Assembly: GCA_020831635.1 (NCBI GenBank)
Contig: JAFIGC010000046.1
Location: forward strand, 1 to 34,843
DNA from: Verrucomicrobiota bacterium
GTDB taxonomy: Bacteria > Verrucomicrobiota > Kiritimatiellia > SS1-B-03-39 > UBA6053
Direction of reading: 5' to 3'
Length of the DNA stretch: 34,843 bases
Shown here piece after piece: positions 3,711 through 25,745 of the stretch. Position 1 is the stretch's first letter; every line of letters begins with the position of its first letter. Both the position numbers and the translations under genes were made by a program. The notes below the pieces were generated by a model. It was not told the origin of the DNA. It was given only the letters and a program-made list of their open reading frames with translations, and ran no database searches.

Positions 3711-3756
3711 TTCCGAACGTCGGAAAGAATTTTCGAGGGTCTTCCGAGCGTCGGAA
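3711..3756. repeat. Tandem 15-bp palindrome pair, locus 1
   Basis: TTCCGAACGTCGGAA at 3711-3725 and TTCCGAGCGTCGGAA at 3742-3756: 6-bp arms around a 3-base loop, start to start 31 bp. They sit in the gap between two convergent genes, just past the 3' end of the anti-sigma gene, so bidirectional termination is possible. The same pair with the same 31-bp period recurs at 23575-23620. Confidence 0.85.
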
Positions 3757-13163: not shown

Positions 13164-13820
13164 ATGACTGCATCCAGTCCCAATAAGCCGACCCTCTATG
13201 TTCTTGCCGGTGTCAATGGAGCGGGGAAATCCAGCATTGGCGAGCGGATATTTTCTTCAGAAGAATCAAAAGTTTTTAACCCCGACACCATCGCTTCGAA
13301 AATCCGGGCGTTACGCCCGGATATATCGCTGGCTTTGGCCAACGGCCATGCTTGGCAGATCGGAAAATCTTTGCTCGAACAGGCGATGGAGGCGGGCAAG
13401 GATTACCGCTTTGAAACCACGCTTGGCGGACGCAGCATCACGCGATTGTTGCAACAAGCGGCGCAGGGCGGACATCGGCTGAACATCTGGTTTTGCGGAT
13501 TGGAAAGCCCGGCGCTTCATCTTCGCCGGGTGCGGGCACGGGTCAAAAAAGGCGGACACGACATTCCCGAAGACAAAATCCGCGAACGTTGGAACGGCAG
13601 CCGGGAAAATCTCATTCGCCTGCTCCCCCACATCCATCACCTGCGGGTGTATGACAACTCCACCGAAGGCGATCCGGCCAAGGGTCACCCGCCCCACCCC
13701 GTCTTGGTGCTGGAAATGCAATGCCAAACCATCACTGCCCCCGCCGACCTTTCCCACGCGCCCGACTGGGCACAGCCGATTGTCGCGGCGGCGATCCACC
13801 TGCATCGGAGGGGAAATTAG
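13164..13820 (+). CDS. Zeta-toxin-family P-loop kinase
   Basis: A 218-residue kinase of the zeta toxin family. It has Walker A GVNGAGKS (16-23), an NPD segment (39-41) corresponding to the family's (N)xD site, the FETTLGG substrate-loop motif (83-89) and the arginine-rich lid RRVRARVKKGGHDIPEDKIR (121-140). Characterised zeta toxins phosphorylate UDP-N-acetyl sugars and block cell-wall synthesis; this activity is inferred, not shown. It lies 11 bp after a Phd/YefM antitoxin instead of an epsilon-type one, which makes the pair a hybrid TA module. Its stop overlaps the convergent GH28 gene by four bases. No obvious truncation. Confidence 0.85.
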   Translation: MTASSPNKPTLYVLAGVNGAGKSSIGERIFSSEESKVFNPDTIASKIRALRPDISLALANGHAWQIGKSLLEQAMEAGKDYRFETTLGGRSITRLLQQAAQGGHRLNIWFCGLESPALHLRRVRARVKKGGHDIPEDKIRERWNGSRENLIRLLPHIHHLRVYDNSTEGDPAKGHPPHPVLVLEMQCQTITAPADLSHAPDWAQPIVAAAIHLHRRGN

Positions 13821-15301
13821 TTCAGGATCACTTCAGCAAATTCATTTATCTTCATCAAAGGATGGAGGGAAGGATCAAAGGGGTGTCCCTCCCATGAGAC
13901 CCCGTGGAATCGGACCCCGGTAATGTTATGCGCCGGGCCGCGACCCTGGAGGTGGCATTCCCCGTTCGCGCCCTCAATCCCGGTTACCGCGAAATCAACG
14001 TTGGCGACTTCGATCTCCTCCAAGCGGGAGAAACGGGTTTGGTTTTCCTGCCCTTCGCGGGAAATGATCCAGAAATCAAAAGGACGATTGCATCGGTGTA
14101 CGCGGATGTTGCGGAAGGCAAGCCGCCGTCCGGTCGCACCGTCTTTCATGTCCGCCGCAAAGGCGCGGGAAGCCTGCACAATGTCGATGTCCTCGAAAAC
14201 GATATCCTCCATGAATCCACCCAGGGTTTCGGTGCCGATTTTGCAGGCGGTGGTGGAGCAGCGCATCAGTCCGCCCCGCACATGGATACGGCGCACGTCC
14301 CGCAACTCCCCGCGCCAAGTGGAGGTGTTCTTGATGGGCACACAATCGTCCCCGGTGTGGAACACGCAATTCAGAATCTCCACATCCTGACTGGAATCGG
14401 GATTGATCCCGTCCGCATTGTTCCAGACCGACTGCGAATCCGCCTTTTGAAAGCGGTCCCAGCCTTTGGGCGGAATTTCGCTGATGAGTTTTACCCGGTC
14501 GAAACGAAGTCGTTCCGACAAAATCGCGTGCACCGTCCAAAATTCACTGTCCCGCAGTTCCACGCCCTCGATGCGGATGTTTTTGCAGTTCACCAACCGC
14601 ATCAGGTTCATCATCAGCCGCCGACCCGGCATGAGGCGGTGCCGCCAAGCGGAGCCATTGGCGCTGATCACCCCTCGTCCCACGATGCCGGCGTTTTCCA
14701 CACTCTGAAACAACACCAGCCGACGAGTCGCCCCGGGGATCAGCGACCGGGGCAGATTGCGGTTCACGTTTTCCTCCGGCTCCACCGGAAAATCCTCTGC
14801 GTTGTCCGAAGCCAGCAAGACCGCACCCGCCTCCAGATGCAGGTTCACTCCGCTTTGCATGAAAAGCGTGCCGATCCGGAACACGCCCGGACCCACCACC
14901 AGGGTTCCCCCACCCTCGCGAGACAACTTCGCCATGGCCTCGTTGAGTATCGGGGCTTGATTGTCAGGCGAATCGGACTTCAATGGAATCCGAACCGCAT
15001 CCGCGGACACCGGCCAAGCGGTCGGGTCGTCCAGAAACACAAAAACCGGAGGCTGATCCGGGTGAAAGAGCATCCAGTCTCCCGGACGGGAGGCGCGGAA
15101 ACGAAACCCGTCTCCGTCCGGGACAATCTCCGCATCCCGTTCGGGAAACACACGGGTTTCCGGGTGAAATTCTCCCAGGGGAAACTCCAGATCCGCGCGC
15201 CAGTCCGTGCGCAGGATCCGTACCGGATTCCGGGGATAGCGGTACACCGGGTCTGGTGAAAAAAGGGTTTCGTCGCGAAGTTTTATAGGTAATGAGATCA
15301 T
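13817..15301 (-). CDS. GH28-family (polygalacturonase-like) enzyme
   Basis: A 494-residue right-handed beta-helix protein. The GH28 active-site signatures are present as NNADGINPDSS (294-304), TGDDC (316-320) and CKIGTE (353-358). The canonical GHG motif is not obvious (the corresponding area reads IHVRGGLMRC), so activity or specificity may be altered. An N-terminal domain (1-105) precedes a pectinase-type start near 115-150. No signal peptide is present, suggesting an intracellular enzyme acting on imported oligosaccharides. ATG 15301 was taken as the start; a TTG lies three codons upstream. It is downstream of the DUF1961 gene on the same strand with a 222-bp gap, so it may have its own promoter. 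The gap shows nothing else convincing. Confidence 0.8.
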   Translation of the reverse strand: MISLPIKLRDETLFSPDPVYRYPRNPVRILRTDWRADLEFPLGEFHPETRVFPERDAEIVPDGDGFRFRASRPGDWMLFHPDQPPVFVFLDDPTAWPVSADAVRIPLKSDSPDNQAPILNEAMAKLSREGGGTLVVGPGVFRIGTLFMQSGVNLHLEAGAVLLASDNAEDFPVEPEENVNRNLPRSLIPGATRRLVLFQSVENAGIVGRGVISANGSAWRHRLMPGRRLMMNLMRLVNCKNIRIEGVELRDSEFWTVHAILSERLRFDRVKLISEIPPKGWDRFQKADSQSVWNNADGINPDSSQDVEILNCVFHTGDDCVPIKNTSTWRGELRDVRRIHVRGGLMRCSTTACKIGTETLGGFMEDIVFEDIDIVQASRAFAADMKDGATGRRLAFRNIRVHRCNRPFDFWIISREGQENQTRFSRLEEIEVANVDFAVTGIEGANGECHLQGRGPAHNITGVRFHGVSWEGHPFDPSLHPLMKINEFAEVILN

Positions 15302-15523
15302 GCAAGACAACTACCGTTGGGATTTCCTGAATCAAACATACTTCAAAAAGAAAAAGGTTTACGGTTAGATGATTCCCTTTCCGATCTTAATGACGATCTG
15401 GATTCAGGCGTGCTCATGACCCTTTCCCCGGACTGGGAAAAGACTTGGTTACTTTGTTTTGATTTGGCCCGGGCTCATGCCGCTGCGACGGGTTGCCGGA
15501 CCTTGGACACACTACACTGGTCT

Positions 15524-16936
15524 TTACAATCCGCGGTTCCAGACGCGGAAGTTGCGAAAGGCCATTTCGGTGCGGGCCATGGTGCGCAGGGCGATGCGTC
15601 CGCAATTGAGTACGGGTCCGTTGTTGCAGTGGGGATCGTCGCGCAGATCGAGCACGCAGTCTCCGTCCACCACCGCGCGCAGCCGGTTGCCCTCCTGTAG
15701 GAATTGAACCTTGTGCCAGGTGTTGAGCGCGTAGTGTCCGCGCCGGGTGGAAAAGCCCATGGTGCGGTGCCAGGGGTTTTTGATCATGCCGTGGGAGATG
15801 CGGTCGTTGCGCACGTCATTGATTTCCCGGAAATATTCCCAATGATAATTGCGCACGTCTTCCCAACAGACCATGCTCATCGATCCGGTGGTGCGTCGCG
15901 GATAACAGGCCATGAAATCTTCTCGCTGCATGCCGGAGGCTTGCAGGATCAACAGACTCAGCCCGCCCCGCGCCAAGGGCATGAATTCGTATTCGACGTA
16001 GAGGTCTCCGTCGAAAAATTCCTCCGTCCAGAGATAGAGGTGTTCTTCGGCGAAGCGGGCGTGGTCCGGCAACGGGCCGCCGCCGGTGTGAATCTCCAGC
16101 ACGCCGTTCGTCACTTGTGCGGCGGCGGCGTTGCCTTGGAGATAGAATTTCTCCAGATCCGCGGCATCCCGAAAATCGGCTTGAAAACGAAGTTTCCAGG
16201 CCGCGTCGGGTTCGAAGGAAAACGGATTGGGAACCTCCCGGTCATACAAGGCTTTTAGCGCGGCGGTCCGTTCGGGGTTCACATCCGAGGTTGAAAGTTC
16301 CTCGGGAGACAAGACCCGGGTCCAGCCGGTGACAGCTGCAAAGGCGAGGGCGGAGTTGCCGAGATAGAGATGTTGTCCGGGAGCATCCACCTGGAACTTC
16401 CCGCCAAAATGATGGATCAGGGTGTCGGAAGTCCCCACCAGCACCCCGTTGGCGTAGAGTCGGTAGTCCATGGCCGGGTGATCCCAGGTAACGGTGACCT
16501 CGATCCATTCGTTGGCGTGGAAGGCGAAATGGCCGGCCCCGGCGAAGGCGCGGGCGGGGGTGTTGTGGATTTCCCAGGGCTCAAAGCCGGCCGCGAATTT
16601 GACCATGAGGTTCGGATGCCAATAACAGTCCCAGGCCAGCGCGAAATGGGCGGGACCGGGGTCGGCTTCCGGCTGGTCGGAAAGCAGCCGATAGCGGCCG
16701 GCCCGAGGCAGGTGTTTGTTGTGCTGGGGCAGGCGTTGACAGGTGTCCAAATCCTCCAAGGGCAACAGACGCAGGGTGAGGGTACCCGTCGTTGAAGCCA
16801 GGATGTCGCCGGGAAGTTCGACGGCGTTTCCGGGGGCGTTGGCCACCCAGCCGGTGCCATTGGCGCGGGTCAGGAGTCGGCCCCCGGGGGCTTCCACGGC
16901 GGTCCAAGTCAGGGTGGGTTTCGTATCAGTCGTCAT
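15524..16936 (-). CDS. LamG-like plus DUF1961 (YesU-type) protein
   Basis: A 470-residue protein with two concanavalin-like beta-sandwich parts. Residues about 1-250 look LamG-like and end in the typical LYLGNSALAFAAVTGWTRVL pattern. Residues about 275-470 resemble DUF1961, including SLLILQASGMQREDFMACYP and WHKVQFLQEGNRLRAVVDG. DUF1961 is found in Bacillus YesU, in the rhamnogalacturonan-use cluster, which fits the GH28 neighbour. There is no signal peptide. The ATG at 16936 has GGAGG six bases upstream and overlaps the preceding GH-A gene by 11 bases, so the two are coupled. Function is probably carbohydrate binding or hydrolysis; a precise role is unknown. Confidence 0.75.
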   Translation of the reverse strand: MTTDTKPTLTWTAVEAPGGRLLTRANGTGWVANAPGNAVELPGDILASTTGTLTLRLLPLEDLDTCQRLPQHNKHLPRAGRYRLLSDQPEADPGPAHFALAWDCYWHPNLMVKFAAGFEPWEIHNTPARAFAGAGHFAFHANEWIEVTVTWDHPAMDYRLYANGVLVGTSDTLIHHFGGKFQVDAPGQHLYLGNSALAFAAVTGWTRVLSPEELSTSDVNPERTAALKALYDREVPNPFSFEPDAAWKLRFQADFRDAADLEKFYLQGNAAAAQVTNGVLEIHTGGGPLPDHARFAEEHLYLWTEEFFDGDLYVEYEFMPLARGGLSLLILQASGMQREDFMACYPRRTTGSMSMVCWEDVRNYHWEYFREINDVRNDRISHGMIKNPWHRTMGFSTRRGHYALNTWHKVQFLQEGNRLRAVVDGDCVLDLRDDPHCNNGPVLNCGRIALRTMARTEMAFRNFRVWNRGL

Positions 16937-19436
16937 GTGTGCCTCCAAGAGATGCGGTTCGATAAAACGTGAAGCCGTGCGGAACCTCCGCGGCGGCATT
17001 GCCAAAAAGATCGCGCCAACCGGAAAAGCCCGGATCCCGCGGCGGCAGTTCGGGGGGACCGTTGGAGAGAAAAACCTGCGTTGAATCCCCCGCATTGTTG
17101 CTGAAGGTGATCAGCCGTCCGTCATTCAGCGTTTCGCAGGCGGTCACGTCCCGTCCGTCGATCATGCGCGCCAGGACCGCGAAGGCGGCGGCGGCGGGAT
17201 GTGGCGAGCCGTCCGGCGCCAGCAGCACCGTGAAGCTGTTGTCCTCGCCAAGGCCATGGAAGTTGTGCATCGTGTAGAGAAAAATCTTTTCCACCCCTTC
17301 CACGCGCTGGGCCAGAATCGAACGCGCCTGCCGCTCGGCTTCGTCCCAGATCGTTTGCAGATTCTCCGGCTCTTCCGGCAGAAGGCGGCGGAAGAATCCG
17401 GACGACAAGCCTTCGGGTTGCGCCGATCCCTCGGTGTTCCAAACCGACTGTTTCAAACCGCCCTTTTCCAACAGCGGACCCAGGGCGAAGCGGAAGGTTT
17501 CGCGGGACAAGTCAAACTGACGCAACGGATCGGCGGCGGAGCTGTAATCGTGATAACTCAGCAACTGTACCGCCTCCAAGGCCCCGCCCGCTTCGGCTTT
17601 GCGGGTCCATTCATCGCCGTCCATCCATCCGGTGATGTTGCGGTTGGTGGTGGTGTTGAGTCCGATAAGGGGCATCCGGCCATCCACGGCTTCGGACGCA
17701 AGCCGGCAGAGGGTCGCGTAGGCGGCCACCGGGTCGGCGGGACGAGGATACACCGCCTTGCCCTGCGAATCCCGCACCACTGCGTGGCTGAAAAATTTGT
17801 CCAACCAGGGCTCGTTCCAGACCTCGTACACCGGAATATCCGCGCCATACCGCGCCACGGTTTCCCGCACATAGTGTTTCCACCCGTCCAGATCCCGAGG
17901 CGCGACGAACATATCGAAATAACTGTGAATGCGCTCCGTTTGACCCGAGGCCCAGCGCGGGGCGGTGGTGAGTTTGCCCAGCACCGAAAACCCCGCTTCC
18001 CGATAACGCGCCAACAGTTCGGGACGGAACATCCACGCCCCGCGTTCCGGTTCGACATTGTACCAATAGCAAATTTCCGCCCCCGGACCGTGCAGACGGG
18101 CCCAGTTGATCCCCAGCCGTTTGGCCATCCTGAGATGACGGGCCGTGGGCAGCAGGTGCGTGCCAAAGCAGGACTCCGGATTTTCCCGTCCCTGCGGTGT
18201 GATCGCTTCGGGAATACGGTGAAGCACCCACTCGGTCACGCCGGAGCAAACCTTTCCGTCCGCATCCTCCACCCAGGCTTCGAGCCGATAGGAACCCAAA
18301 GCGGACACACCGCAATCGTCCAGTGTCCAGGGAATTGGATTCGCATCGGGACCGATGACGGGCATTCGTCCGTAAATTTGGTGGTCATAAAGATCTGAAA
18401 GCGACCAGACCAGCGCGTCCCCTGCCGAAACCGTCCCGCTGATCCAGCATTTGAGCATCAGCGGCTCACCTTCCGTGAACAACCCATCCGGGACCTGCGG
18501 AACCAGAGAAATTCCGGCCCGTCCTCGCTCCCCGTATTCCATTGAAGCGCCCGGCGGGGCCACGCGCAGAGAATCCAGGTGGACGAAGATCGATTCCTTC
18601 CAAGAAATTTCGAGGGAATAAGGCGTGAACGCATCCGCCGGCAGAAAGGGAAGGCTGACGAAACGTCCCTCCGCGTCCGCGATAAGTTCCGTCTGCGCCA
18701 GTTCCCGCTTGTTGGAACGGACCGCCAAACGCAGGGTCCCCCTGCCCTTCAGCCAAAGTGAGGCGGTGTGACCACCTTCGCCCCAAGCCAGCATCGGCGG
18801 CGAACGCAACCATCCTTCCCGCTCCGCAGTCACGGGCAACGTCGGACAGCCGGAGGGCCCGATAACGGCTTCATCCCTGGTCACAAAAACGGTTTCAGGC
18901 GAGTGGGAACGCTCCAGGGTCCACCCCTGCGGCAACCCCAACGGAAAACACCCGGCGGGCAGCAGATTTGCGGGAACCGGCAGTTCGGAGCGGCGCATCA
19001 GCTCCCCCCGCAATCCCTCGCGATCCAATGGACGCAATGTCAGCGTCGCCACATCCCATACGCCCCTTTCCGGGATATCCAACCTCAGCGAGAGGGTGGG
19101 AAGATCCGGGGGAAGCTCAAGCCGCAGTTTCCGCCATTCGGTGGAGGGTTGCAAGGTTTGCGTCAGCCTCGGCTCTTCCGTCGCATCCAGCACCGAAAGC
19201 TGTCCCGCCAACATGCTGCGGTCACGGTAACGAAGGGTCACTTCGCCATCCACGGGCAAAGGCAAAACGTGGCGGCCCGGCGCCAGGCGAAAAAAAAGTT
19301 CGCCGCTCAAATTGCGCTGGTCCACCCACTCGCCCCGCAATCCTTGCGGGACGGGATCCCCCAACAAATCCAAGGCCTCCCCGAGAAAATCTTCCCGGTG
19401 AAGAAAGAATGGAGGTGGCGATGCTACAGATTTCAT
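16926..19436 (-). CDS. Clan GH-A glycoside hydrolase with N-terminal beta domains
   Basis: An 836-residue multi-domain enzyme. The first ~400 residues are beta-rich accessory modules; the C-terminal part is a TIM-barrel of clan GH-A (GH5/GH39-like). The acid/base Glu is E542 in YEVWNEPW and the nucleophile is probably E669 in VWNTEGSA. No signal peptide is visible. The ATG at 19436 overlaps the heparinase-gene stop (ATGA), and an ATG two codons earlier (19442) is also possible. Its stop lies inside the start of the DUF1961 gene. The substrate is unclear; the neighbours suggest pectic or other uronic-acid polysaccharide. Confidence 0.8.
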   Translation of the reverse strand: MKSVASPPPFFLHREDFLGEALDLLGDPVPQGLRGEWVDQRNLSGELFFRLAPGRHVLPLPVDGEVTLRYRDRSMLAGQLSVLDATEEPRLTQTLQPSTEWRKLRLELPPDLPTLSLRLDIPERGVWDVATLTLRPLDREGLRGELMRRSELPVPANLLPAGCFPLGLPQGWTLERSHSPETVFVTRDEAVIGPSGCPTLPVTAEREGWLRSPPMLAWGEGGHTASLWLKGRGTLRLAVRSNKRELAQTELIADAEGRFVSLPFLPADAFTPYSLEISWKESIFVHLDSLRVAPPGASMEYGERGRAGISLVPQVPDGLFTEGEPLMLKCWISGTVSAGDALVWSLSDLYDHQIYGRMPVIGPDANPIPWTLDDCGVSALGSYRLEAWVEDADGKVCSGVTEWVLHRIPEAITPQGRENPESCFGTHLLPTARHLRMAKRLGINWARLHGPGAEICYWYNVEPERGAWMFRPELLARYREAGFSVLGKLTTAPRWASGQTERIHSYFDMFVAPRDLDGWKHYVRETVARYGADIPVYEVWNEPWLDKFFSHAVVRDSQGKAVYPRPADPVAAYATLCRLASEAVDGRMPLIGLNTTTNRNITGWMDGDEWTRKAEAGGALEAVQLLSYHDYSSAADPLRQFDLSRETFRFALGPLLEKGGLKQSVWNTEGSAQPEGLSSGFFRRLLPEEPENLQTIWDEAERQARSILAQRVEGVEKIFLYTMHNFHGLGEDNSFTVLLAPDGSPHPAAAAFAVLARMIDGRDVTACETLNDGRLITFSNNAGDSTQVFLSNGPPELPPRDPGFSGWRDLFGNAAAEVPHGFTFYRTASLGGTHDD

Positions 19437-21679
19437 GGCCATTCAAAGACCTGAACACGCCCATCCTCAAGAACCTCCACGCGTCCGGGACTCACGCCTA
19501 CCTCCGCCTCGAAGCCGGAATCACAGCTCAGTGTGAACGTGTAATGGCCGGGCTGTTCGCCTTCGCGCATTTCCACCCGTCCGGTGCGGGTCTGGCCCGC
19601 AGGATCGGCGGTGAGGAACAGCGCCTGGGCGGCGGGGAGTCCGGGCAACTGACGCTCAATGCGCAAGGTCGGGATGGGAATGGCCCGATTGCCTTCGTTC
19701 ATATTCGCAAAGCGCCAACCCAGCAGTTCGGGTTCGGTCTGACCCCTGACCACATCGGCGACGGCTTCGCCGCTGCCTGCCCAGGCGAAGTGAAGCCGGG
19801 GCGCGTCGGCATTCCCGAGGTGCAGGCCCTCGGGCTCGGGGGGCGTGTGGGGCAGATCCGTGAGTTGAAACAGGGAGGTCGCGGTCTCGGGGCGGGTCGG
19901 ATTCGGACCCAGCCGGTCCGGCGGCGTGGCCGGGTGGATCTCACGGGGCGAAAACACATCGACCACCAGCCAGCGATCCGGCTTGAACCAGACGATGTGC
20001 CGACGATGCTGCACGAATTTGAATCCTTTGTCGGCCAGATGGAAAAACTCCTCCGGATTTTCTCCAAACGCGCCGGAGGTGAAAGCCACGGCATCACGGT
20101 CTTCGAAGAGGAAGCCTTCCGCCGGACCCTCGGCATGGTTCAGACGTCCGTCCTGCCACCAACGGCGCGACTGACCCAAGCCGTCGAACAGCACGGTGCT
20201 GTGCGCGGTGGGTCCGACGTTGAAGCGGCGCTCCGGGGATTCGCCATACGCGGCGCGGCCGGTATCGATGATCATGGGCTGTCCGTGGGCGTAGAGCAGA
20301 AACCCGAGTTTGTCCTCGTGGGCGTGGCCTCCGAAGGGACCCGCCTCGAAGAAGAGCGCGTTGGCGGCGGCGCTCCAGTTTTCGCGCAGGATGCCCCAAC
20401 CGGCGTAAGGCATGGCCACGGAGGTGTGGGCGGGAGCTTCTCCCCGGGCGCCGAAGCTGGCGACATGGTCGAAATCTGGACGATTGAACCGCCGCGCGGC
20501 GGGGCGCAAGATCCAGTCGGCGGACAGCGTGTCGGCATCGTTCACCTGCGGCAACCGTCCTTCCGGCATGCGGGCATTCATCACCCCTTCCGTCATGCGT
20601 TCCAGGGCCTGTTCGACCTTCGGATCCGGGGTCAGCCCGGTTCGGTAGGCCAAATCGAGCATGGAAACCAACGCGGAGCGAACGGTCTCCTGATACCAGA
20701 AGGTCAGTTCCTGATAGGCTCCATCGGGATACACGTTCCGCGCGAGATCCTCGGAAACGCGCGACCAGGCGGTGTCGGCCCAGACGCGGGCGCGGGGGAA
20801 TTCCGGGAAAAGCGCCGCCGTGGTGAGCAGTCCCTCGGATTCGATGTACATCCAGTTGTCGGGGCCGGAAAATTCGACCAGGAAATCGGCCTGCCGCACC
20901 ATGGCCGCCACCATGCGAACCAGTGTCGCATCGTCCAGATCCGGACTTTTCAGCAGACCAGCGAGTACACGCGGCCAGGCGGCGCGGAGTCGCTCACCGG
21001 TTTCGATGGTCCGCCAAGCCGGGGCAAAGGGGCGGCGGTGTCCCCGCTCGCGCGGGATAAGAGCCGCTTGGGCGCGGACCAAACTGTCCGGGATCCGGGC
21101 CTGCTCAAGCCAGGAAACGAGTTGCGCTTCGAAGGCCGCGACGTAAGCGGGATTGCCGGTTTCCCGGTAGGCTTGGGCCAGATCGACCCAGTGACCATGC
21201 CGATTCAACAGCAGCGGCCAATCGGAGAATGTCGTTGGATTCTCCAGCCACTGAATGCTTTCCCCGTAGTTGTGGGTGTGACCCAGCAGGCGAACCTGCC
21301 CCAGACGCGCCGCCTCGCCCGCGGGCGTGGTCCCCTCTCCCGCCGGAACCGCGGCGGAGGGTTGCAGGGCGCCGCCCCAGTCTTTGCCTCGTAGAAACTC
21401 GGCATAGGCCGCCAAGGCGGCTTCGGGATCCTCTTCGGACACCGCGCGCGCCACCCCGGCCAAATCTTCACGCTCCAAATCCAGGGCACGATAAAAAGCC
21501 AGTCCCGGGAATGGATCGGTCAACGATACCCTCACCGGCGGCGCCGGGGAGTAAGGGACCGTCTCGGGTGCCGGGGTGGGGATGGCTTTAGACGGCTTCA
21601 CTTCATCCGCATCCTTGCGCTGCCCCACGCAAGCCGTGAGTCCCAGCATCATCAAGATCGTCAACCATGTTTTAGTCAT
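19433..21679 (-). CDS. Heparinase II/III-type polysaccharide lyase, lipoprotein
   Basis: A 748-residue protein with a lipoprotein signal (MTKTWLTILMMLGLTAC, lipobox L-T-A-C17), so it should be membrane-anchored on the outside of the inner membrane or in the outer membrane. An alpha-toroid of alpha/alpha repeats covers roughly 60-420, followed by a beta-sandwich. The GGHAHEDKL motif (450-458; H452/H454) is the heparinase II/III signature. These lyases cleave uronate-containing glycans (heparin, alginate, others) by beta-elimination; the exact substrate is not readable. The start overlaps the upstream gene's stop by eight bases, and its stop overlaps the next start (ATGA). Confidence 0.85.
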   Translation of the reverse strand: MTKTWLTILMMLGLTACVGQRKDADEVKPSKAIPTPAPETVPYSPAPPVRVSLTDPFPGLAFYRALDLEREDLAGVARAVSEEDPEAALAAYAEFLRGKDWGGALQPSAAVPAGEGTTPAGEAARLGQVRLLGHTHNYGESIQWLENPTTFSDWPLLLNRHGHWVDLAQAYRETGNPAYVAAFEAQLVSWLEQARIPDSLVRAQAALIPRERGHRRPFAPAWRTIETGERLRAAWPRVLAGLLKSPDLDDATLVRMVAAMVRQADFLVEFSGPDNWMYIESEGLLTTAALFPEFPRARVWADTAWSRVSEDLARNVYPDGAYQELTFWYQETVRSALVSMLDLAYRTGLTPDPKVEQALERMTEGVMNARMPEGRLPQVNDADTLSADWILRPAARRFNRPDFDHVASFGARGEAPAHTSVAMPYAGWGILRENWSAAANALFFEAGPFGGHAHEDKLGFLLYAHGQPMIIDTGRAAYGESPERRFNVGPTAHSTVLFDGLGQSRRWWQDGRLNHAEGPAEGFLFEDRDAVAFTSGAFGENPEEFFHLADKGFKFVQHRRHIVWFKPDRWLVVDVFSPREIHPATPPDRLGPNPTRPETATSLFQLTDLPHTPPEPEGLHLGNADAPRLHFAWAGSGEAVADVVRGQTEPELLGWRFANMNEGNRAIPIPTLRIERQLPGLPAAQALFLTADPAGQTRTGRVEMREGEQPGHYTFTLSCDSGFEAEVGVSPGRVEVLEDGRVQVFEWP

Positions 21680-22427
21680 TGGTCGACACCATGAAAAAGT
21701 CGGTCAGGAGCCGTGCGGCATCCTTTACGCGGGTGGTGCCACTGGTGGTGAAAAAGAACCCCACCTCCGTGACCTGGTCAAAATTCGGCTGCGCGGGTTC
21801 GCGGTCCCCGGCGATCCGGGCCGTGCCGTCCACGGTGGCAAGTTTGGTCCAAGCCACGGTGCGCGGATCCTCGATGATCAGGGTCTTTTCGCCCCAATCG
21901 CCCTCGGTATCACGGGTATAGGACATGGGGGGACCCACATAGCGTTCCCCTTCCGCCATGACATAAAAATAGACCCAGCCCTCCTGATCCGGGATGTAGC
22001 CGGTGTAGGTGCGGAGCACCATGGCTTTTTCACGCGCCAAGGAAATCGGTTGGTTCGTATGGGGCGCTGCAAAGGATTCCATGGTGAAAATGACCGCGCC
22101 GTACATCACGTCCACCGTGCCCATGCCCCCTTCGGTGAAGCCCAACATGTCCAAGCCATAGGGGCCGGTATTGTTGTCGATTTCCGCACGATCCACGCTG
22201 CCGTGCGCGGAACGGCCATATCCACCGAAAAACCGCGGTCCCCGATATCCTTCCGCGGGCGAAAGCGGGGTTTCGAGGCTCAGACCGCCCGTCTCTTTCA
22301 TGAAAAGCAGGGGGGTGCGTTCCTCCACCAGATCCGCGCCCCCAAAGGTCAACACGGCCTCCGCAAAGACGGTGCAAGCGGAACTCAGTAAAACAAACAG
22401 ACAAACAAAGATTTTTTTCATGATCAT
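21672..22427 (-). CDS. Secreted protein of unknown function
   Basis: A 251-residue protein with a classical signal peptide (MIMKKIFVCLFVLLSSACTV, cleavage likely after VFA at about 22). The rest is beta-rich and has no motif I recognise; the C-terminal half (VGFFFTTSGTTRVKDAARLL) resembles a carbohydrate-binding-type beta-sandwich only loosely. ATG 22427 was preferred over 22421 because GGAG lies six bases upstream. It is the first gene of the minus-strand polysaccharide operon and overlaps the heparinase start by eight bases. A surface-bound or periplasmic glycan-binding role is inference. Confidence 0.65.
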   Translation of the reverse strand: MIMKKIFVCLFVLLSSACTVFAEAVLTFGGADLVEERTPLLFMKETGGLSLETPLSPAEGYRGPRFFGGYGRSAHGSVDRAEIDNNTGPYGLDMLGFTEGGMGTVDVMYGAVIFTMESFAAPHTNQPISLAREKAMVLRTYTGYIPDQEGWVYFYVMAEGERYVGPPMSYTRDTEGDWGEKTLIIEDPRTVAWTKLATVDGTARIAGDREPAQPNFDQVTEVGFFFTTSGTTRVKDAARLLTDFFMVSTND

Positions 22428-22482: not shown

Positions 22483-22503
22483 CGTGAAAGCGCGGTCAAA
22501 TGA

Positions 22504-22516
22504 TTGTAACGTACAA
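22504..22516. promoter_or_regulatory. Candidate LacI-type operator, divergent promoter
   Basis: TTGTA-ACG-TACAA is an odd palindrome between the divergent polysaccharide operon and LacI-family gene. Its 11-base core TGTAACGTACA recurs, inverted, at 23640-23652. Position and symmetry suit binding by a LacI dimer that controls both directions. Confidence 0.55.
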
Positions 22517-22559
22517 CGGGAACTTGACCCGAAGGAAGAAATGCATACAGACCCGTTCC

Positions 22560-23570
22560 ATGAAGCGGGTCACCATTAAAGAAATTGCCCGGGAAGCGGG
22601 CGTATCGGCCATGACGGTCTCGTATGCGCTGCGCAACAACCCCAAGATCAGCGAGGACACCCGCGAAAAAGTGCGGGCGGTCGCGGAACGGCTGGGATAC
22701 CGTCCCGATCCGGAGATCAGCAAACTGATGCGGCACCTGCGGGATCCTCGCCGCACCGCCTTTTCACACAGCCTCGCCTTTGTGAACTCCTGGCCGGACA
22801 AAGACGAATACCGCAAGGGCTACGTCGGCGGGATCTTCAAGGGCGCTTTGGCGCGCGCCGAGGCACTGGGCTTCAAATTGGAGCCGTTCTGGCTGGGAGA
22901 CTACCGGGGAAGCGAAGCAAAACTCTCCGCCGTCCTGCATCACCGGGGCATTCCCGGGCTACTGCTCCCCCCCTGGCATCAACCGGACACCGCGCCGGCC
23001 TTCGTCTGGGAACACTTCGCGGCCGTCACCACCACCCTTTCCATCCACGAACCCAAACTCAACCGAGTGGCCAACCATTTTCACCATAACATGGAACTGG
23101 CGCTCAAAATTCTCGCGCAACGGGGGTACGGGCGCATCGGCTTTGTGGAGACGGCCGACTTTCATCTCCGCGAGGAAAGCATGGCTTCAGGAGCCTACCA
23201 TAACTACGCCGCCGCTCAGCCCTCCCGACGCCGCCTCCCGCCGCTGGTCTTCTCGCCCGAGGACCCCCAATCCCTCTTCGACTGGTACGACAAGCACAAA
23301 CCCGACGCCATCATCGGTTCCCTCAAACGGCCCCACGATTTGCTCGCCGAACGCGGCGTGAACTTTCCCGAAGACTGCGGGTTTCTTTGTCTGGACGCCC
23401 TGCAGCATCCCCATCTCGCCGCCGTGGATACCCGACCCGAAGATCTGGGCCACGCCGCCATCGACAACCTCGTCGCCCAGATTTTCCGCAACGAATCCGG
23501 CCTCCCGCCCCTCCCCAAGTTGACCCTCATCGAAGGGCGCTTCCGCGACGGATTTTCCATCCGCTCCTGA
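22560..23570 (+). CDS. LacI-family transcriptional regulator
   Basis: A 336-residue regulator with the LacI helix-turn-helix at residues 4-26 (TIKEIAREAGVSAMTVSYAL) followed by the hinge (SEDTREKVRAVAERLGYRP) and a periplasmic-binding-protein-like ligand domain (about 60-336). It probably senses a sugar and represses the divergent polysaccharide operon and itself. ATG 22560 starts the usual KRVTIKEIA N-terminus; there is no strong ribosome-binding site. A GTG-started extension upstream would run through the operator and is rejected. A hairpin pair follows four bases after its stop. Confidence 0.93.
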   Translation: MKRVTIKEIAREAGVSAMTVSYALRNNPKISEDTREKVRAVAERLGYRPDPEISKLMRHLRDPRRTAFSHSLAFVNSWPDKDEYRKGYVGGIFKGALARAEALGFKLEPFWLGDYRGSEAKLSAVLHHRGIPGLLLPPWHQPDTAPAFVWEHFAAVTTTLSIHEPKLNRVANHFHHNMELALKILAQRGYGRIGFVETADFHLREESMASGAYHNYAAAQPSRRRLPPLVFSPEDPQSLFDWYDKHKPDAIIGSLKRPHDLLAERGVNFPEDCGFLCLDALQHPHLAAVDTRPEDLGHAAIDNLVAQIFRNESGLPPLPKLTLIEGRFRDGFSIRS

Positions 23571-23574
23571 GTCT

Positions 23575-23620
23575 TTCCGACGGTCGGAAAGGGGTATAAT
23601 TTTTCTTCCGAGCGTCGGAA
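23575..23620. repeat. Tandem 15-bp palindrome pair, locus 2
   Basis: TTCCGACGGTCGGAA at 23575-23589 (arms extend to 8 bp, CTTTCCGA/TCGGAAAG) and TTCCGAGCGTCGGAA at 23606-23620. Start-to-start spacing is again 31 bp, as at 3711-3756. The pair begins four bases after the LacI stop and could terminate its transcript. Confidence 0.85.
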
Positions 23621-23639
23621 GCCCATATTTTTCACTGAA

Positions 23640-23652
23640 GTGTACGTTACAC
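23640..23652. promoter_or_regulatory. Second LacI-type operator, upstream of the PEP-CTERM gene
   Basis: GTGTACGTTACAC is the inverse of the palindrome at 22504-22516 with two terminal bases different. It lies 11 bp upstream of a possible -35 (TTTACG, 23664-23669), which is spaced 18 bp from a -10 (TATCTT, 23688-23693). Confidence 0.5.
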
Positions 23653-23737: not shown

Positions 23738-24544
23738 ATGAACAGCCCCACAAAATTCTTAACAGTGTTCTTGATGAACAGCGCGGTTTTTGCCGCGACC
23801 CTTTCTTACGAGGGATTTGATTATGCCCAAGGTGATCTTGCCGGAAACGGCGGAGGCGTTGGTTTTACCGGAAACTGGTCTGTAACAACAGGAAGTTGGA
23901 ACGTCGTTGCCGATTCTTTGTCATACGCCACGCTGGAAACCACCGGCAACAAAGTCGTTGCTCAAACAGGCGGAACAAATATTGCCGCGCGATCCACGGG
24001 TTCTCAACCCGATTCCGGAGAATTCTGGGCCAGCATCTTGGTGGATAGCTTGTCCTGGAATGGCGGAGGGCTAACCTTTAGTGCCAATACCAGCAACTTG
24101 AATCTCAACGCCGGGGATTTCGATAATCGGGCTCGGTTTGGGTTTGGTATCAATGGTTCAAACTATGTGTACACACTGGATGGTCGAACGGGTACACCTG
24201 TTTCCGGCTCTGTCGCTGGAGCCCCGGAGGGTACGGTTTTTCTCGTTGCAAAATTTGATGTGACCAATGGATTGTTTAGCATGTGGGCAAACCCTGATCC
24301 AGGTGGCAGTTCCCCCACCGGGGGTAACCTCATCGCGGAGAATGTCTCCTTCACCCGCACCGGATCTGACTTTGCCAACGATATCCAGTTTGCAGGACTA
24401 TTCACCAACTGGAGCGGTGTTGGACTGGACGAAGTCCGTCTCGGCACGGATTTTGCCAGCGTCGTCATCCCCGAGCCCTCGACACTGGTCCTGTTCGGCA
24501 TTGCCGGGCTGGGCGCGGGTATTTTCGCGCGCCGTCGTCGCTAA
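23738..24544 (+). CDS. PEP-CTERM sorting-domain surface protein
   Basis: A 268-residue exported protein with an N-terminal signal peptide (about 1-19, ending VFA), a beta-sandwich-like body (YEGFDYAQGDLAGNGG near 24-39, many G/N/S/T residues) and a C-terminal PEP-CTERM tail: V-IPEPST (243-249), a short hydrophobic helix and the basic end ARRRR. The tail targets the protein for exosortase-type processing and surface or EPS attachment. ATG 23738 has GGAG seven bases upstream. The LacI-type palindrome upstream suggests co-regulation with the polysaccharide operon. A good terminator follows (24560-24606). Confidence 0.9.
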   Translation: MNSPTKFLTVFLMNSAVFAATLSYEGFDYAQGDLAGNGGGVGFTGNWSVTTGSWNVVADSLSYATLETTGNKVVAQTGGTNIAARSTGSQPDSGEFWASILVDSLSWNGGGLTFSANTSNLNLNAGDFDNRARFGFGINGSNYVYTLDGRTGTPVSGSVAGAPEGTVFLVAKFDVTNGLFSMWANPDPGGSSPTGGNLIAENVSFTRTGSDFANDIQFAGLFTNWSGVGLDEVRLGTDFASVVIPEPSTLVLFGIAGLGAGIFARRRR

Positions 24545-24559
24545 TTCCAACAAACCACT

Positions 24560-24606
24560 CCCCGGGACCTCCCGCACGCGAGGCGGGTTCCCGGGGAAAG
24601 TTTTTT
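24560..24606 (+). terminator. Rho-independent terminator of the PEP-CTERM gene
   Basis: CCCCGGGA (24560-24567) pairs with TCCCGGGG (24589-24596), with an inner CCCGC/GCGGG stem, followed by a run of six T at 24601-24606. It separates the PEP-CTERM gene from the following oxidoreductase. Confidence 0.8.
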
Positions 24607-24623
24607 CATTCATCGAAAACGTT

Positions 24624-25745
24624 ATGTCCACCACACCCATCCTTCGTCTCGGGGGCCTCGGCTTGGGGGAAGGCCGCAGTGTGATTTCCGCAGCCCTTTC
24701 CGCGCCGGAGTGGGAGATCGGCATGATCTGCGATCTTGACGAAGGGTTGTGCCGTGAGCGTTGTCGCGAGTTTGGGGAGATGCCCTGGACGAGGAACTAT
24801 GCGGAAATGCTGGGGCGCGATGACATCGATGTCATCGCCATCTACACCCCCGATCCCCTGCACGCCCCCCACATGCTTCAGGCCTTGGAGGCGGGCAAAC
24901 ATGTGATCTGCACCAAACCGCTGCTCGACGATCTCACCCCCGGGCCGGCTCTGCTCCAGGCGCAACGCGCCTCCGGCAAACGGGTCATGGTGGGACAAAG
25001 CACCCGCTTCGTCGAAAGCATGATGCGTCAACGCGCCGATTTCGAGGCGGGCCGCTTCGGCAAGCTCGTGAGCGTGGAAGCCAAATACATCCACGATCAC
25101 CGAAACTACATGAACGGCAAATGGGGTCCCGAACTGACCAAAACCATGAACTGGGTGTACCTCGGCCTCAGCCATCCCGTGGATTTGGTGCGCTGGTACC
25201 TGCCGGAGATCGAAGAAGTCTTCGCCTACGGGCTTCTCTCCCCCTTTGCCGCGAAGGCGGGCTTGCAAAAAGCCGACAGTCTTCACGCCGTTCTCAAATC
25301 GGCCGACGGCGTGATTGCCCAAGTGACAGGCATCTACGGGGTGCCCGAACATCATCCCGACCGCGACGCGCTGAAAACCTGCACCCTGCGCGGCACCTGC
25401 GGCACCTCCACCTCCGACTATCCACAACTCCGGTACAGCCGAAACCTGGATGGACACCAACCCGAGTGGATCGCCTTTCCCGAATTGAACGATTATTACT
25501 ACCGCTTTGGCGGATACATGCATCATGCCGGGGAGTTCGAAAATTATCTCCGCCATTTTGCCCAAGCCCTCGCCCGCGGCGAGTCCCCACAACCCGACCT
25601 CGAGGACGGTCTGCGCACCGTCGCGGTCATGAAGGCCCTCGAACGTTCCGTTGAATCCGGCACACCGGTCCGGGTCGCGGAAATCCTCCGGGAATACAAT
25701 GTTTTCTGCACATATCCGACCAATGATTTCACCCTGGATCCGTGA
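24624..25745 (+). CDS. Gfo/Idh/MocA-family oxidoreductase
   Basis: A 373-residue NAD(P)-dependent sugar oxidoreductase. An N-terminal Rossmann fold (GGLGLG at 10-15) is followed by AGKHVICTKP (90-99), where the family's EKP lysine is present but the Glu is Thr (T97-K98-P99). The C-terminal alpha/beta substrate domain covers about 125-373. Such enzymes often oxidise or epimerise sugars and uronates in verrucomicrobial polysaccharide loci. The ATG at 24624 was chosen because a longer upstream extension would read back through the PEP-CTERM gene. Its TGA stop lies within the left arm of a 14-bp hairpin. Confidence 0.85.
   Translation: MSTTPILRLGGLGLGEGRSVISAALSAPEWEIGMICDLDEGLCRERCREFGEMPWTRNYAEMLGRDDIDVIAIYTPDPLHAPHMLQALEAGKHVICTKPLLDDLTPGPALLQAQRASGKRVMVGQSTRFVESMMRQRADFEAGRFGKLVSVEAKYIHDHRNYMNGKWGPELTKTMNWVYLGLSHPVDLVRWYLPEIEEVFAYGLLSPFAAKAGLQKADSLHAVLKSADGVIAQVTGIYGVPEHHPDRDALKTCTLRGTCGTSTSDYPQLRYSRNLDGHQPEWIAFPELNDYYYRFGGYMHHAGEFENYLRHFAQALARGESPQPDLEDGLRTVAVMKALERSVESGTPVRVAEILREYNVFCTYPTNDFTLDP

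Follow-up and report, generated by a model that had tools for sequence, protein, structure and literature searches.

A conserved pair of palindromic sites suggests co-control of secreted enzymes and a PEP-CTERM protein by a local LacI-family regulator

Two short sites in inverse orientation, O1 and O2, lie on either side of a lacI-family gene in the window, the 34,843-nt stretch of DNA that was analysed. They are best read as a private operator pair of the LacI protein encoded between them, which would co-control a divergent operon of secreted enzymes and a PEP-CTERM gene (probability about 0.72, judged from sequence). Behind this reading stand the observations that the sites are unique, conserved and palindromic, the synteny of the locus, a terminator-like hairpin and a genome-wide pairing of regulator and PEP-CTERM genes. 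Such local co-control is, taken alone, ordinary biology, and the interest of the locus comes from the systematic regulator-PEP-CTERM pairing. The features of the locus are as follows, with ortholog identities referring to a sister species of the same genus:

15524 to 17095, minus strand: DUF1961/YesU-like, 3-keto-disaccharide-hydrolase-like protein (PF09224, PF06439; 1oq1 YesU; 86% ortholog)
16926 to 19442, minus strand: 838-aa protein of the same divergent operon (no Pfam or PDB match; 80% ortholog)
19433 to 21679, minus strand: heparinase II/III-like lyase (PF16889, PF07940; phmmer matches to heparinase III structures; 84% ortholog)
21672 to 22421, minus strand: small protein, predicted to be secreted, from the gene that opens the divergent operon (no Pfam match; 76% ortholog)
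22504 to 22516, plus strand: O1, candidate LacI operator TTGTAACGTACAA, between the divergent lacI gene and secreted-enzyme operon; kept in the sister species
22560 to 23570, plus strand: lacI-family regulator, 336 aa (PF00356, E 5.3e-19; PF13377, E 4.8e-7; each above its cut-off; 87% ortholog)
23640 to 23652, minus strand: O2, candidate LacI operator (GTGTACGTTACAC on the plus strand), upstream of the PEP-CTERM gene; kept in the sister species
23738 to 24544, plus strand: PEP-CTERM protein, 268 aa (PF07589, TIGR02595, AlphaFold2 model)
24559 to 24606, plus strand: intrinsic-terminator-like hairpin and U tract (-30.1 kcal/mol, z -4.3), directly 3′ of the PEP-CTERM gene
24624 to 25745, plus strand: Gfo/Idh/MocA oxidoreductase, whose gene closes the conserved block (PF01408; 89% ortholog)

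The regulator carries an N-terminal LacI helix-turn-helix and a periplasmic-binding-protein-like sensor domain (Peripla_BP_3), the make-up of the LacI family. Its open frame begins at 22500 and covers O1, and the conserved start is the ATG at 22560. The PEP-CTERM protein consists of an N-terminal hydrophobic leader, a predicted beta-sandwich, and a C-terminal sorting motif with the Pro-Glu-Pro, hydrophobic helix and basic end of the family (PF07589, 27.8 bits against a cut-off of 20.7; TIGR02595). The strong hairpin and U tract that follow the gene have a similar counterpart in the sister species (z -2.5), so that the gene is probably transcribed alone.

The 13-base sites and their shared core, described in an earlier note on this DNA, were confirmed: both contain the 11-base core TGTAACGTACA without mismatch, inverted at O2. 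The core is a palindrome, with TGTA and TACA arms flanking ACG. The outermost bases form a complementary pair at each site, yet differ between the two (T..A versus G..C). The lacI ATG follows O1 at a distance of 44-56 bp, and on the other side the divergent operon begins 83-95 bp from this site. O2 precedes the PEP-CTERM ATG by 86-98 bp. A pattern search of the whole genome (6,008,866 bases) returned two exact copies of TGTAACGTACA, O1 and O2. The enrichment upstream of other glycan genes that the earlier note had proposed to look for in a genome scan did not materialize, there being no further exact copies and no excess of one-mismatch matches. A dispersed (global) LacI regulon was accordingly rejected, since matches with one mismatch allowed numbered 12 in total for TGTAACGTACA (exact ones included) against 39 for the reversed control pattern, and 19 against 25 for the pattern TGTAWCGTACAM. 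Sorting the ten one-mismatch TGTAACGTACA loci into genic and intergenic by open frames is unreliable, because even O1 and O2, though truly intergenic, both sit inside long open frames.

The possibility that a short palindrome is common to two neighbouring intergenic regions by chance was evaluated by simulation. An exact 11-mer was shared in 35 of 2000 first-order Markov resamplings of both intergenic regions (p about 0.02), and in-window shuffles with two mismatches allowed gave similar counts, so that the coincidence within one genome, taken alone, is modest. Both sites are, however, kept in the sister species (G003; Verrucomicrobia MAG contig JAFIGD010000003.1), as GTGTATCGTACAA at O1 and TTGTACGTTACAC at O2, and all four intergenic regions of the two species share an 11-mer when up to one mismatch is allowed. 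None of 150 four-region simulations gave such an 11-mer, a result that is somewhat overstated because both species were treated as independent; this bias is limited at O1, where the surrounding DNA is poorly conserved, and not at O2, where the DNA from the site to the PEP-CTERM start codon is well conserved. Chance is thus disfavoured and regarded as very improbable.

The sister locus maintains a block of seven genes at 76-89% identity, in the order DUF1961/YesU-like, 838-aa protein, heparinase II/III-like, small secreted protein, LacI, PEP-CTERM, and Gfo/Idh. A scan of GTDB genomes for further orthologs of the locus returned only this sister MAG, and the orthologous locus is known in two species only. 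Neither the GH28 gene (13817-15310) nor the prepilin-like gene was found in the 38 kb of the sister genome that was compared, and GH28 is not part of the conserved block. The pectin-type substrate proposed in the earlier note is not supported: GH28 lies outside the block, and the conserved enzymes are heparinase II/III-like and YesU/DUF1961-like, with an 838-aa protein that has no Pfam match.

The sites could also belong to a different regulator of the genome, which encodes 30 LacI and 68 AraC proteins, the assignment to the local LacI being drawn from sequence. Exact matches to TGTAWCGTACAM were found twice in the source genome and twice in the sister genome, every one at the lacI locus, while a search of seven other relatives gave a single, unrelated exact match (G007). 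The confinement of the exact sites to this locus in both genomes fits a private, locus-bound regulator, and a different owner is considered quite unlikely. Being locus-unique, kept in the sister species and palindromic, O1 and O2 are read as operators of the neighbouring LacI. Since they look like local LacI operators, co-control of the enzyme operon and the PEP-CTERM gene, as the earlier note had proposed, stands as the best reading.

No consensus sigma-70 promoter was found at O1 or O2. Beside O2, where the earlier note saw a plausible promoter, only a weak conserved TTTACG...TTGTAT was recognized by eye in the two-species alignment. Judged by weak conserved hexamers in this alignment, O1 and O2 would each lie upstream of the likely -35 region, and both repression and activation are possible for this reason. 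Upstream of lacI (22504-22560), neither species shows a clear Shine-Dalgarno sequence ahead of the ATG, and just upstream lies a conserved TTGACC together with a TAC(A/G)GA hexamer; on these grounds, the lacI transcript may be leaderless.

In the co-control model, a LacI dimer would bind O1, adjoining the lacI promoter and that of the four-gene secreted-enzyme operon, and would also bind O2, ahead of the probably monocistronic PEP-CTERM gene. A sugar set free from the glycan would probably act as the LacI effector and alter binding, such that enzymes, regulator and surface protein would respond together. We infer that LacI acts as a repressor, the usual mode of the family, with activation as a possibility.

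A second set of palindromes beside O2 was ruled out as extra operators. Palindromes of the type TTCCGANNNTCGGAA occur at 3711-3756 and 23575-23620 of the window and belong to a genome-wide repeat with about 290 such palindromes (586 two-strand matches versus 2 for the reversed control), in which they are paired, in most places at a spacing of 31 bp, with several copies inside open frames having 32 bp. The sister locus lacks the copy found between lacI and the PEP-CTERM gene, which suggests that this TTCCGA element is mobile, and it looks like a REP/BIME-like element. Near the corresponding place in the sister locus (L014, about 2570-2610), a different short direct repeat, GGATGAACAC, is found. 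Three TTTTCCAAGGCTTGGAAAA-type palindromes with 31 bp spacing, possibly related to the TTCCGA element, lie upstream of a LacI gene in another genome (G017, locus L018).

Many relatives of the window's PEP-CTERM protein adjoin LacI genes, and the co-control reading is strengthened by a genome-wide pairing of LacI and AraC genes with PEP-CTERM genes. The source genome contains 113 PF07589 matches, from which an exosortase (EpsH) is likely to be encoded, along with the 30 LacI and 68 AraC (PF12833) genes. With gene ends estimated from open frames, and under a uniform null that ignores contig edges, a PEP-CTERM gene is found no more than 400 bp from 14 of the LacI genes versus 1.6 expected (p 8e-11), and from 35 of the AraC genes versus 3.6 expected (p 9e-27); divergent orientation accounts for 40 of these 49 pairs. 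Sulfatase genes, used as a control for the clustering of glycan genes, showed no excess (2 of 30 near a PEP-CTERM gene; Fisher p 9e-4 versus LacI and 1e-5 versus AraC). In the single-contig genome of another genus of the family (G008), at least 11 of 23 LacI and at least 8 of 33 AraC genes are paired (rotation null 3/5000 each), these counts being lower bounds that rest on 81 of 100 PEP matches. The sister species gives a pairing count of at least 6 of 17, and a few LacI loci in other families of the class (L021, L031 and L036) also have a nearby PEP-CTERM gene. No paper on this pairing was found in the literature searched, which covered few subscription papers; among papers that mention PEP-CTERM with LacI or AraC, none concerned the pairing by title or abstract, and the matches in PMC12078418 lay in its reference list.

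The pairing also bears on the proposal that LacI uses both sites for its own control only, with O2, some 1.1 kb distant, in an auxiliary or looping role and the PEP-CTERM gene as a bystander. O2 does sit between lacI and the next gene, and the lac system offers known examples of distant auxiliary operators. However, a mostly divergent, genome-wide LacI/AraC-PEP pairing would not be expected of a bystander gene, the DNA between O2 and the PEP start codon is well conserved, and the PEP-CTERM gene ends in its own terminator-like hairpin. Control of lacI alone is therefore considered unlikely.

Other LacI-PEP loci point to private operators as well. The best palindromes in 25 divergent LacI/PEP-CTERM intergenic regions, which include a few orthologous pairs and are thus not fully independent, were longer overall than those of resampled sequence (Fisher p 7e-6), and mostly differed in sequence from region to region. 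One of this set, TCACTAAGCACGATTAGTGA, is identical in both sister species. An operator motif common to the LacI paralogs was not found, the paralogs having either individual palindromes or none. Six tandem LacI-PEP loci other than that of the window were also compared. One of them, from another genus (G005), has a clear two-site motif: AGTAGACAGTCCACT precedes lacI and AGTAGACTGTCCACT precedes the PEP gene, which repeats the two-site design with a different sequence. Of the remaining five, one has a borderline direct repeat, three lack such a motif, and the result for the last is unreliable, its reading frame having been cut short. At two further loci (L197, 745-1509, and L226, 1917-2750), the LacI orthologs are 80% identical and share the same operator, and the PEP-CTERM signal peptides are near-identical. 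The ectodomains differ, one containing CBM96 and the other a different domain, which looks like an ectodomain swap.

Pfam searches of the window's PEP-CTERM protein revealed no domain beyond the sorting motif. The AlphaFold2 model, of moderate confidence (pLDDT 72, pTM 0.75), is a beta-sandwich whose PDB matches include lectin or lectin-like, SPRY, and calreticulin domains at low TM-scores of about 0.3-0.45, which suggests a lectin-like fold for the ectodomain. Two other paired PEP-CTERM proteins contain CBM96 and laminin-G domains, and together with the predicted fold, these make glycan binding by the window's protein plausible. In a scan of 20 flanking proteins, picked by length and position and several without a CAZyme match, some pairs were found near GH67 and glucuronyl esterase, GH31, GH3, DUF1961, beta-helix, or heparinase-like genes. 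One tentative generalization, which we hold to be possible but somewhat doubtful, is that the PEP-CTERM proteins of the family are substrate-specific glycan-capture proteins of the cell surface and functional SusD counterparts, each with its own LacI or AraC sensor, a private operator, and an exchangeable ectodomain.

PEP-CTERM proteins are numerous, and their roles are mostly unknown. Their systematic pairing with sugar-type one-component regulators suggests that they are switched on for particular carbohydrates; it provides a likely inducing condition for many of them and makes their function testable. The pairing also hints at a possible means of polysaccharide capture in this bacterial family at loci that lack SusC/SusD-type genes.

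Local LacI-family sugar regulators are auto-regulating and flank catabolic genes. The present regulator resembles them in being a one-component protein, with a LacI helix-turn-helix and a periplasmic-binding-like domain, divergent enzyme genes, and nearby palindromes, but differs in that one of its candidate operators would serve a PEP-CTERM surface-protein gene. Unlike usual LacI operators, the core has an odd length of 11 bases and an off-centre CG, and the hinge of the protein is PDPEISKLM rather than the usual NAVARSL type. In Proteobacteria, the PEP-CTERM/exosortase system is under PrsK/PrsR/sigma-54 control, and further regulators and motifs for PEP-CTERM genes were named in 2006 as yet undiscovered (PMC1569441). 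As in that system, the PEP-CTERM gene here appears to be a single transcription unit with a candidate regulatory site in the preceding intergenic DNA, whereas the neighbouring regulators are one-component LacI or AraC proteins with locus-specific sites. Anabaena ZepA is a Zur-controlled exoprotein for nutrient capture, described in a paper that also discusses PEP-CTERM (PMC10957091); it likewise pairs a nutrient-responsive regulator with an exoprotein, but it is a single case involving zinc and Zur, whereas sugars, LacI or AraC, and a genome-wide pairing are implicated here. As in the SusC/SusD polysaccharide utilization loci of Bacteroidota, a sensor, secreted enzymes, and a surface protein are gathered in one locus; unlike in those loci, no SusC/SusD-type Pfam match was found among the conserved block genes scanned, and a PEP-CTERM protein stands in place of SusC/SusD.
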